Positions 2,008 to 3,936 of a DNA stretch of 64,000 bases are shown here, piece after piece. Every line of letters begins with the position of its first letter. Position 1 is the first letter of the stretch. Made by a program: the position numbers and the translations under genes. Source of the DNA: Verrucomicrobiota bacterium (GTDB lineage: Bacteria; Verrucomicrobiota; Verrucomicrobiia; Limisphaerales; UBA9464); assembly GCA_017309115.1 (NCBI GenBank), contig JAFLEF010000008.1, positions 123,993 through 187,992 of the forward strand, given 5' to 3'. The notes below the pieces were generated by a model. It ran no database searches. It saw only the letters and a program-made list of their open reading frames with translations, and was not told where the DNA came from.

Positions 2008-2112
2008 CTCGCTATTGAAAGCCGGGGAGCGGGAAGGGGGAAGGGGGAAAGTGGGGACTAGAGCAGTTGAGAGCTGAGAGCTGAGAGCTGAGAGGTTGGA
2101 ACAGGGAAGCTC

Positions 2113-2204
2113 GGTGGGGCGAGGCTCTGCCGAGCCGTTCGCGTCCCGGCAAATTGCGCGCCAGGAGGCCACCCACGGACGGCTCCGCGGAACGTCGCCC
2201 TACC
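2113..2204 (+). repeat. 92-bp palindromic repeat (PAL), copy 1
   Basis: The reference layout of the main dispersed repeat in this window: left arm beginning GGTGGGGCGAGGCTCTGCC, a central part containing an MluI-like core (here degenerate), and right arm ending GGAACGTCGCCCTACC. The arms are ~26 nt and pair with about three mismatches. Orientation is called + when the GGCGAGG arm comes first. At least 17 full or partial copies occur in the window, all between genes. Confidence 0.9.
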
Positions 2205-2229
2205 GGACGAGGGCGAGTAAGGTTTAAGC

Positions 2230-2321
2230 GGTGGGGCGAGGTTCTACCGAGCCGTACGCGTCCCGCCGAATTGCGCGGCAGGAGTCCACACGAGCACGGC
2301 TCCGCGGAGCGTCGCCCCACC
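2230..2321 (+). repeat. PAL repeat, copy 2
   Basis: Full-length copy in the same orientation as the preceding one, 25 bp downstream of it. Confidence 0.9.
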
Positions 2322-2368
2322 AGGGGACGAACCGCTTACCGCTTTGCCTCTCAGCTCTCAGCTTCGCT

Positions 2369-3382
2369 TCACTCCCGGCCGGCGGCGGCGATGAAGGGTT
2401 TCAGTTCGGTCATGAGCTTGCTGAAACCATCCAGGGTCAGCTGCTGGGCGCCGTCGCTCCAGGCTTCCTTGGGGTTCGGATGCACTTCGATCAGCAACGC
2501 GTCGGCACCCATGGCCACGGCGCCTTTGCACATGGCGACAACGAGGTCAGCTCGGCCGGCGCCCTGGCTGGGATCGATGACCACCGGACAGTGGGACTCC
2601 TGCTTGATGATCGGCACGGCGGACAGGTCGAGGGTGTTGCGGGTGTAGGTCTCGAAGGTTCGGATGCCGCGTTCGCAGAAGAGGAGATTTGGGTTGTCGT
2701 TGGACAGGACGTACTCGCCGGCCAGCAGCCATTCCTCGATCTTCATGGAGAGCCCGCGTTTGAGCAGGACGGGTTTGCCGGTCTTGGCGGCGGCAATGAG
2801 GAGTTGGAAATTTTGGGCGTTGCGGGCGCCGATTTGCAGGATGTCGGCGTATTCGGCGACCATCTCGGCGTGGTCCTGAGAGAGCAGCTCGGTGATGATC
2901 GGCAGTCCGGTTTCCTTACGGGCCTTGGCCAGAAGTTTGAGGCCTTTTTCGCCGAGGCCCTGGAATTCGTAGGGAGAGGTGCGGGGTTTGAAGGCGCCGC
3001 CGCGGAGGATTTGGGCACCGGCGGCTTTGACGGCGTGGGCGGTTTCCATCAGTTGCTTTTCACTCTCAACCGAGCAGGGGCCGGCCATGACCACCAGCGG
3101 GCGGGCGCCAATCACGACATTCCGGGCCTTGACCGTGGAGTTCTGGGGATGGGCTTCGCGGCTGACCAGTTTGAAGCGTTTCTGGATGGGCGTGACGCTT
3201 TCCACCTGGGGCCAGGCGCGCAGGACGTCGAGCGACTGGTGGGCGGTTTCATCGCCGATGGCACCAATCACGGTGCGGGCGACGCCCCGCATGACGTGCG
3301 GGCGGTAGCCCAGGCGTTTGATTTCTTTGACCACGGCGGATTGTTCCTTGGAGGACAGATTTGGTTTGAGAACGATGATCAT
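2369..3382 (-). CDS. aroF: 3-deoxy-7-phosphoheptulonate (DAHP) synthase
   Basis: Catalyses the first step of the shikimate pathway, condensing PEP and erythrose 4-phosphate to DAHP in the cytoplasm. The 337-residue protein has an N-terminal ferredoxin-like regulatory domain (MIIVLKPN, residues ~1-70) as in Thermotoga-type (AroA-beta, TIGR01361) enzymes, then the catalytic barrel with GPCSVES at 101-107 and RGGAFKPRTSPYEFQG at 127-142. The ATG at 3382 matches the family N-terminus; longer frames run back through a terminator hairpin. Transcription seems to begin upstream of a short aromatic-rich ORF and that terminator, suggesting attenuation (see findings). The shikimate-pathway gene aroC lies elsewhere in the window (21346-22431), so the pathway is scattered. 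Confidence 0.95.
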   Translation of the reverse strand: MIIVLKPNLSSKEQSAVVKEIKRLGYRPHVMRGVARTVIGAIGDETAHQSLDVLRAWPQVESVTPIQKRFKLVSREAHPQNSTVKARNVVIGARPLVVMAGPCSVESEKQLMETAHAVKAAGAQILRGGAFKPRTSPYEFQGLGEKGLKLLAKARKETGLPIITELLSQDHAEMVAEYADILQIGARNAQNFQLLIAAAKTGKPVLLKRGLSMKIEEWLLAGEYVLSNDNPNLLFCERGIRTFETYTRNTLDLSAVPIIKQESHCPVVIDPSQGAGRADLVVAMCKGAVAMGADALLIEVHPNPKEAWSDGAQQLTLDGFSKLMTELKPFIAAAGRE

Positions 3383-3422
3383 GGGAGGGAACGCGGCATC
3401 ACACCGGGGCTGGGAATAAAAA

Positions 3423-3446
3423 AGCCGCCGGTGTTGGCCGGCGGCT
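3423..3446 (-). terminator. Intrinsic terminator between leader ORF and aroF
   Basis: Perfect 9-bp stem AGCCGCCGG/CCGGCGGCT with a 6-nt loop. Read on the minus strand it is followed at once by a run of T (A-run at 3418-3423 on the plus strand). It sits 17 nt after the stop of the leader ORF and 41 nt before the aroF ATG, which is where an attenuator would lie. The leader contains GGCCGGC (minus strand, 3481-3487), which can pair with GCCGGCC in the 5' arm and so could act as an antiterminator. Confidence 0.75.
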
Positions 3447-3462
3447 ACGGGGTGCGGTTTCT

Positions 3463-3540
3463 TCAATCGACCACGCGCCAGCCGGCCCGGGTAAACCAAT
3501 ACCCGAAGCTGATAAAATAGCCGGCGAACGCGAAGTCCAT
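3463..3540 (-). CDS. Putative aromatic-rich leader peptide of aroF (25 aa)
   Basis: A 25-codon ORF starts at ATG 3540 and stops at TGA 3463-3465. Nine codons are aromatic: Phe at positions 3, 5, 9, 12 and 16, Tyr at 8 and 14, Trp at 15 and 21. An intrinsic terminator lies 17 nt after its stop, followed by aroF, whose product starts Phe/Tyr/Trp synthesis. This matches the layout of ribosome-mediated attenuation leaders such as E. coli pheA and trpE. The frame is also open for 19 codons upstream but offers no ATG, GTG or TTG there. No clear Shine-Dalgarno is visible; aroF lacks one too. It could instead be the tail of a decayed hydrophobic protein. Confidence 0.55.
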   Translation of the reverse strand: MDFAFAGYFISFGYWFTRAGWRVVD

Positions 3541-3652
3541 GAGTTGGGAAAGGCTACCGAGGATCGGCCCGGCGTCAATCGTGGGATTGGAATCAAGCTG
3601 AGAGCTGAGAGGTAAGCGGGAAGCGGCAAGCGGGAAGCGGCAAGCGGGAAGC

Positions 3653-3744
3653 GGTGGGGCGAGGCTTTGCCGAGCCGTGCGTGTCTCGGCGAATAACGCG
3701 TCAGGAGTCCACAGACGTGCGGCTCCGCGGAGCGTCGCCCCACC
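3653..3744 (+). repeat. PAL repeat, copy 3
   Basis: Full-length copy, GGTGGGGCGAGG arm first, ending in CGTCGCCCCACC. Confidence 0.9.
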
Positions 3745-3791
3745 GGGACAGGTGGGGAAAGGTGAGGGACGAAGGCGAGTGAGGTTTGAGC

Positions 3792-3883
3792 GGTGGGGCG
3801 AGGCTCTGCCGAGCCGTGCGTGTCTCGGCGAATAACGCGTCAGGAGTCCACAGACGTACGGCTCCGCGAAGCGTCGCCCCACC
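3792..3883 (+). repeat. PAL repeat, copy 4
   Basis: Full-length copy, almost identical to copy 3 and in the same orientation, 47 bp away from it. Confidence 0.9.
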
Positions 3884-3936
3884 GGGGCCTCAAATCCGAC
3901 CTCTCAGCTCTCAGCTCTCAGCTTCCCCATCAGGGG

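Follow-up and report, generated by a model that had tools for sequence, protein, structure and literature searches.

The window, a 64,000-nucleotide stretch of DNA from a Verrucomicrobiota bacterium, belongs to contig C90 of a 7.5-Mb draft genome. It raises the question of whether a short open reading frame (ORF) rich in aromatic codons, followed by a terminator hairpin, governs the DAHP synthase gene aroF that lies behind it.

Layout of the aroF leader and its promoter-like elements

The aroF gene occupies positions 2369–3382 of the minus strand, with its ATG at 3382, and encodes a DAHP synthase with a ferredoxin-like domain (PF18152, PF00793, NF006421, TIGR01361). Elsewhere in the genome the protein finds a single further match, which is 32% identical over partial coverage. 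Direct reading of the DNA bears out the leader ORF described in an earlier, sequence-only reading of this stretch. The ORF, MDFAFAGYFISFGYWFTRAGWRVVD, at 3463–3540 of the minus strand, runs for 25 codons from an ATG at 3540 to a TGA ending at 3463, and nine of its codons are aromatic, comprising five Phe (codons 3, 5, 9, 12 and 16), two Tyr (8 and 14) and two Trp (15 and 21). The same reading had placed a 9-bp terminator hairpin with a T-run ahead of the DAHP synthase start, which holds on direct reading and on the protein family matches. The hairpin (3423–3446, minus strand; 5′ arm 3446–3438, 3′ arm 3431–3423) has the sequence AGCCGCCGG-CCAACA-CCGGCGGCT, and its U-tract, TTTTTT at 3418–3423, read from 3423 to 3418, is followed by ATT. 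Its distance from the stop codon, previously given as 17 nt, is in fact 16 nt. GGCCGGC at 3487–3481, inside the ORF, is complementary to GCCGGCC in the terminator 5′ arm and the edge of the loop, as had been noted.

A partly palindromic intergenic repeat of about 95–120 nt, which we take to be a REP/MITE-type element, is found on both sides of aroF in four copies (window positions 2088–2325 and 3628–3887). One copy has 79 matches across the window's genome, often clustered. Short AGCTGAGAG repeats at 2072–2095, 3596–3619 and 3900–3924 adjoin the palindromic elements on both sides of the gene.

Three features escaped the sequence-only reading, namely the promoter, a start that is probably leaderless and a protector hairpin inside the ORF. 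On the minus strand upstream of the leader lies a −35 promoter-like element, TTGACG (3573–3578), whose TTGAC box recurs across loci, and after a 16-nt spacer a −10-like element, TAGCCT (3551–3556), chosen as the best-scoring hexamer. In 43 of 55 dereplicated leaders a 16-nt spacer separates the top-scoring −10 hexamer from the −35 box. The first, second and sixth bases of the hexamer are T, A and T in 50, 53 and 51 of the leaders, counts that are inflated because the hexamer was picked by a score favouring these bases. The spacing from −10 to start codon is 6–10 nt in 52 of the 55. A discriminator usually measures about 6 nt, which together with the −10 position would put the leader start codon at about +1 to +5; in the window, transcription is predicted to begin at 3541–3544 (minus strand), 1–4 nt 5′ of the start codon. 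We therefore hold with considerable confidence, judging from promoter position, that the leader mRNA is leaderless and begins within a few nucleotides of its start codon. Shine-Dalgarno-like words (GGAG, GAGG or AGGA) precede 3 of the 55 leaders, a scarcity that is not special to the leader, since they precede just 4 of the 55 aroF starts as well.

Recurrence and codon content of the leader

If the sequence-only reading is right, a short ORF rich in Phe, Tyr and Trp codons and a hairpin should recur in front of aroF in related bacteria. We assembled 97 upstream regions. Eighty were named GTDB loci, the best 80 of 264, with proteins 77–85% identical and titles that were mostly Verrucomicrobia or a group of it and in a few cases just 'bacterium'; the others came from the window's family, where aroF is present in 17 of 51 genomes, the window counted. 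In 79 of the 97 loci, a number that includes genomes fetched twice, a TTGAC box is followed 34–42 nt on by an ATG (48) or GTG (31) opening an ORF of 14–40 codons, and in 70 of these 79 leaders a terminator was recognised 3′ of the ORF. Merging identical sequences and leaving out three loci with less than 230 nt upstream gave 84 distinct upstream sequences, of which 69 have the leader ORF and 15 have none by the rule used; among the 69, 62 reach at least 15% aromatic codons and 55 at least 20%. Both the ORF and the hairpin thus recur. Nor is a longer protein frame conserved in place of the short ORF, as the frame upstream is soon closed: it stays open for a median of 11 codons 5′ of the leader start, and a stop falls within 14 codons in 33 of 55 leaders. 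An in-frame ATG or GTG further upstream occurs in 15 of the 55, the window included.

A covariance model, R1, was built on the 55 leaders that remained once the 70 with a terminator had been dereplicated. Among 294 genomes of the order it matched 184 at E ≤ 0.01. The stricter threshold of E ≤ 1e-6 left 119, and at least two of these are false (G091 and G292), the match in G091 being a gene-end terminator and not a leader. R1 derives from the same set of loci, so that its matches are not independent discoveries, and the count that follows concerns placement. In a sample of 107 genomes overlapping the 294, aroF is present in 64, and 51 of these have a match at E ≤ 1e-6, always on the same strand as aroF and ending 4–65 nt upstream of it; none of the 51 has a match at this threshold away from aroF. 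At least two of the other 13 (G134 and G093) have a lower-scoring leader. Matches weaker than E 1e-6 are unreliable. Twenty weaker or second matches comprised ten before aroF, nine of them with a leader (L102, L103, L108, L111, L113–L115, L117 and L118), one before ilvB, which is an ilvB leader (L101), and nine elsewhere (L099, L100, L104–L107, L109, L112 and L116), rejected as terminators at unrelated places. A search of 337 genomes across the phylum gave four matches at E ≤ 1e-6, namely the window, G091 and two without aroF; the latter (L120 and L122), outside the order, were not accepted, tblastn finding no aroF.

A divergent leader of like build, for example MKAISQHSTAVQAWYWFYFSQPCLRAAC, 3′ of a TTGACA box, precedes relatives of aroF with 55–57% identity in f134 and f135, two further families of the same class. 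Among the matches listed there, 22 loci were covered. The leader was found by script at seven of them (L140, L141, L143–L146 and L148) and by eye at one (L147), and the script found none at the remaining 14 (L129–L139, L142, L149 and L150). In L130, from another family of the class, a possible aromatic short ORF of different build (Y F ... W Y Y F) was seen by eye upstream of aroF.

Several individual loci deserve mention. Two loci of the window's genus, L003 and L004, keep the leader frame, promoter-like box and terminator with 4 and 2 aromatic codons of 26, and the leader of L004 has three His codons. L020 and L021 have a promoter-like box near the terminator and no aromatic ORF between, and look like natural deletion derivatives. 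Upstream of aroF in L087 the CCGCAGG arm is retained and the T-run sits on another hairpin (GCCCCGAA/TTCGGGGC), and the aroF frame at G066:C111:8714-9724 contains one in-frame TAG. Leaders also accompany aroF in L050, titled Omnitrophota, and in L051 and L067, titled Proteobacteria, perhaps mislabelled or chimeric assemblies.

The codon content of the leader is specific to its frame. Aromatic codons average 25.4% in the 79 leaders, with 63 reaching 20%. As a null we took 39 ORFs that share the −35/start geometry and lie elsewhere in these loci (870 kb, counting both strands); they average 6.6%, and none attains 20%. At loci with more than one candidate leader the most aromatic was chosen, a step not applied to the null ORFs. 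The leader frame holds 533 aromatic codons, compared with 146 and 213 in the other two frames (3.7 and 2.5 times fewer) and 198 expected from shuffles, a 2.7-fold excess. Of the Tyr codons, TAT occurs 71 times in frame versus 1 and 4 times out of frame, and TAC 72 times versus 3 and 22. Phe is written TTT 224 times and TTC 70 times in the leaders, opposite to aroF itself (148:623). This enrichment supports, indirectly, that the leader is translated. Phe, Tyr and Trp are all present in 46 of the 55 dereplicated leaders, which have 6.7 aromatic codons on average, and we lean towards a leader that senses all three amino acids over one that senses mainly Phe.

Could the arrangement be accidental, with a chance reading frame and a hairpin that is spurious or the ordinary terminator of an upstream gene? 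Short aromatic ORFs and GC-rich hairpins can arise randomly, repeats sit just upstream of the leader in the window, and in one locus (L110) a terminator follows the upstream gene directly, before aroF and with no leader at all. Against this stand a leader, with a promoter-like box ahead of it, in 69 of the 84 distinct sequences upstream of aroF, the frame-specific aromatic codons and the compensating alternative pairing described below. Conservation and the null controls lead us to reject coincidence, to which we assign next to no probability.

An RNA element binding a ligand or protein, such as a riboswitch or a TRAP-like target, in which the ORF would be incidental, would be in keeping with the strong structure across the whole leader. 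However, it would not account for aromatic codons several times more frequent than in the other two frames, or for a codon composition that stays while the sequence varies, and no Rfam class was found in the window stretch or at 13 loci. Around the window's leader Rfam gave just three weak microRNA-family matches (E 0.23–0.89), and at gathering score the 13 loci had no match save one tRNA. A T-box or other Rfam class was accordingly rejected, no curated covariance model matching the window stretch or the 13 loci, and we consider a ligand- or protein-binding element very unlikely.

In a further alternative the nascent peptide itself would sense the free aromatic amino acid and arrest the ribosome, as in a TnaC-like switch, which an aromatic-rich peptide ahead of an aromatic biosynthesis gene might suggest. 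Such a switch is difficult to reconcile with the variation of the peptide. We saw no conserved motif, with the aromatic positions and the C-terminus varying between clades, and 30 close pairs of leaders, not all independent, gave no indication that purifying selection acts on the sequence of the peptide, the changed codons being mostly non-synonymous (133 versus 35 synonymous). In these pairs aromatic sites remain aromatic in 203 of 249 cases, and the remaining sites are unchanged in 431 of 510. The lack of a peptide selection signal is compatible with a leader whose codons matter, without being proof of it, and peptide-induced arrest seems to us a very improbable explanation.

Alternative pairings and the position of the ribosome

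The remaining reading, attenuation by a translating ribosome, depends on mutually exclusive helices. In the window, all on the minus strand, region 1 (3519–3540), the 5′ part of the ORF, is predicted to pair with region 2 (3466–3487), its 3′ end, forming the protector (1:2), with an apical hairpin, CGGGTA/TACCCG (3488–3505), around the Tyr-Trp-Phe codons. Region 2 could pair instead with region 3 (3436–3456), which overlaps the 5′ arm of the terminator (3:4), to give the antiterminator (2:3). The calculated energies are −26.9 kcal/mol for the 2:3 duplex and −18.8 kcal/mol for the terminator hairpin. These assignments come from folding, joined for regions 1 and 2 by permutation tests and for the terminator by covariation; kinship of the sequences was partly controlled in the pairing tests.

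The terminator shows changes on both sides at 6 of its 9 pairs over the 55 sequences, and in an alignment of 12 sequences from the window's clade and its near relatives 98% of cells pair. For the antiterminator, taken as the 3′ end of the ORF plus spacer against the terminator 5′ arm, the 55 loci average −23.4 kcal/mol with their own partner and −19.8 kcal/mol with permuted partners (0 of 5,000 permutations). A conserved core could be defined in 42 of the 55 loci, and removing it there leaves −5.52 versus −3.81 kcal/mol (s.d. 0.25; 0 of 10,000), and a divergent subset of 25 also gave 0 of 10,000. The pairing beats a synonymous-codon null in 95% of the 55 loci, with a mean z of −1.1. In the 12-sequence alignment 81% of the 2:3 cells are paired, a level reached by 1 of 500 shuffles, and there is no excess of both-side changes, which occur at 3 pairs (reached by 332 of 500 shuffles), so support in the window's clade comes mostly from pairing. 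A three-way change, from ORF G, arm 3 C and arm 4 G to U, A and U, was seen in 3 of the 12 rows. The covariation that the sequence-only reading asked for in a mutually exclusive antiterminator is thus found as lineage-specific compensation over the wide set, by permutation, and is weak in the window's own clade.

In the protector, the first half of the ORF pairs with its last 27 nt at −25.0 kcal/mol in 53 loci, compared with −19.3 kcal/mol (s.d. 0.47) for permuted partners, with 0 of 10,000 permutations both there and in a divergent subset of 31. The ORF as a whole folds at −34.5 kcal/mol against −25.6 kcal/mol for versions recoded with synonymous codons (mean z −2.25, with 30 of 53 loci lying below −2), and the fold near the last aromatic codon at −14.4 against −9.9 kcal/mol under the synonymous null (55 loci). 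In the 12-sequence alignment both-side changes affect 12 of 25 pairs of 1:2 (2 of 500 shuffles), with 64% of cells paired.

These features suggest how the leader might work. Transcription would begin a few nucleotides from the leader start codon, and a ribosome would load at the very 5′ end of the RNA. With no ribosome the two halves of the ORF would pair, the terminator would form and aroF would be off. When aromatic amino acids are plentiful the ribosome would reach the stop codon and cover region 2, and 3:4 would again form, leaving aroF off. A shortage of aromatic tRNA would stall the ribosome in the ORF, opening 1:2 and setting region 2 free; region 2 would then pair with region 3 while region 4 has yet to be transcribed, no terminator would form and RNA polymerase would reach aroF.

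The spacing of the elements suits this scheme. By automatic placement in 53 of 55 loci, with a few placements doubtful, the last aromatic codon ends a median of 11 nt before region 2, which itself begins a median of 19 nt before the stop codon. Given the generally accepted size of a ribosome footprint, a ribosome stalled at the last aromatic codon would largely free region 2, and one at the stop codon would cover it. We then simulated ribosome positions by masking the footprint on an RNA ending at region 3, and also folded the full-length leader at equilibrium. On the truncated RNA region 3 is paired with the ORF in 27 of 55 loci with no ribosome and in 27 with the ribosome at the stop codon, rising to 39 with the ribosome at the last aromatic codon, 49 at a middle aromatic codon and 47 at codon 3. 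The result at codon 3 means that, in the simulation, a ribosome need not stand on an aromatic codon to have this effect. In the window itself 0% of the arm is paired with the ORF without a ribosome, and 89–100% in all four ribosome states, with 100% at the last aromatic codon, 89% at the middle one and 89% at the stop. Such pairing at the stop codon is not what a simple attenuation model predicts, and it slightly lowered our confidence in an attenuator. When the full-length leader is folded at equilibrium, the terminator is favoured in nearly all states, the antiterminator prevailing in at most 11 of 55 loci, and in the window the terminator wins in all five simulated states; the model consequently needs the kinetics of 2:3 against 3:4 formation. 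The simulation favours release by stalling, and the off-state at the stop codon was not reproduced on the truncated RNA.

The analysis established that the leader is conserved and lies before aroF, that its aromatic enrichment is confined to one frame, that its upstream geometry is promoter-like and that its 1:2, 2:3 and 3:4 pairings show compensation. Transcription start, translation, stalling and regulatory response we infer, and the function assigned to the leader derives entirely from sequence and folding. Conservation, aromatic codons and alternative pairing together support the sequence-only reading of an aromatic-amino-acid attenuator. Against it count the missing selection signal on the peptide, the few aromatic codons of L003 and L004, the 15 distinct upstream sequences that have no leader by our rule, and the simulation and clade results just described. 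We judge it highly probable that the leader acts as a trp/pheA-type transcription attenuator mediated by the ribosome, which would sense shortage of charged tRNA-Phe, tRNA-Tyr and tRNA-Trp and control aroF.

Known attenuators and the leader in front of ilvB

The sequence-only reading knew of no attenuator of a DAHP synthase gene in this phylum. Our literature searches found none described in Verrucomicrobia either; attenuation of such a gene is already known outside the phylum, in Corynebacterium glutamicum, whose aroR-aroF attenuator was reportedly described by Neshat et al. in 2014. As excerpts of two articles have it (PMC11802643, PMC4046766), a leader peptide with aromatic residues, AroR, precedes the DAHP synthase gene there, stalling at its Phe/Tyr codons is said to raise transcription, and it contains a Phe-Tyr-Phe run, with Phe but not Tyr availability being effective. 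The two systems share an aromatic leader peptide before the same kind of gene. They differ in phylum and in the reach of the codons, the Phe-Tyr-Phe run of AroR contrasting with a mean of 6.7 aromatic codons here, Trp included in 46 of 55 leaders.

The trpL, pheL and pheST leaders of Escherichia coli follow a Shine-Dalgarno site and each respond to a single amino acid, those of ilvGMEDA and thr are multivalent, with branched-chain or Thr/Ile codons, and trpL of Sinorhizobium meliloti is leaderless. The aroF leader resembles the multivalent leaders in that several amino acids would be read by one peptide, and departs from them in that its codons are for the three aromatic end products and the gene behind it encodes the enzyme that opens the pathway. 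Unlike the E. coli leaders, it has no Shine-Dalgarno site that we could see, and both region 1 and region 2 lie inside the ORF. The 1:2, 2:3 and 3:4 logic with an intrinsic terminator is shared with trpL, pheL and pheST, which are also named in the excerpt of PMC11802643. A reference title in PMC4046766 describes the C. glutamicum ilvBNC leader peptide as lacking a ribosome-binding site, and an excerpt of PMC7298713 treats trpL of S. meliloti as a leader peptide. The aroF leader is like these two in being read, as predicted, without a ribosome-binding site, and unlike them in gene and phylum and in that its leaderless start is predicted from promoter position alone.

A second putative leader of this kind occurs on the window's own contig, where a Val-rich ORF of 23 codons, MKRITSVVVLVVGGDTAAGTCCA, with a TTGACC box and a terminator, precedes ilvB (L241, G000:C90:47700-48800). 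Matches to the ilvB-type protein were found in 54 of 58 genomes of the order, and a script recovered a candidate Val-rich leader in 41 of 44 ilvB upstream regions; the remaining three were found by another script (L190 and L243) or by eye (L253). The gene behind the L101 leader is presumably acetolactate synthase-like, from our own reading of the protein. No aromatic leader of this geometry was found by script before trpE at 30 loci among the places listed, or before prephenate dehydratase (pheA-type) at 30 of 38 places.

The excerpted text of an actinobacterial survey (PMC1262725) predicts trp and ilvB leaders, and the terms aroF and DAHP are absent from that text. Naville and Gautheret (2010; PMC2965389) state in an excerpt that, to their knowledge, leader peptide systems had been demonstrated in Proteobacteria and Actinobacteria and nowhere else until their own case in Firmicutes. 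Our literature searches found no description of a leader-peptide attenuator in Verrucomicrobia, and nothing relevant on the phylum in connection with ilvB or leaderless starts; among the texts that did come up were ones on ermB and on an E. coli his reporter. The aroF leader, read as an attenuator, works like trp/pheA-type attenuation and is found across an order for which we found none described; its particular features are likely to be the leaderless start and the reading of all three aromatic amino acids.

On balance we favour a broader picture, that of an order-wide, leaderless, pan-aromatic attenuator of about 25–30 codons with almost no 5′ UTR, which would set expression of the first enzyme and combine sensor codons, protector and half of the antiterminator in one ORF. 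Taken with the ilvB leaders, it would imply that this part of Verrucomicrobia regularly controls amino acids through leaderless ribosome-mediated attenuation. With three helices that constrain one another, in and behind a single small ORF, the conserved family would serve as a test case both of coupling on leaderless mRNA and of the convergent evolution of attenuation. It would also add an RNA family and a small-ORF annotation to the order.
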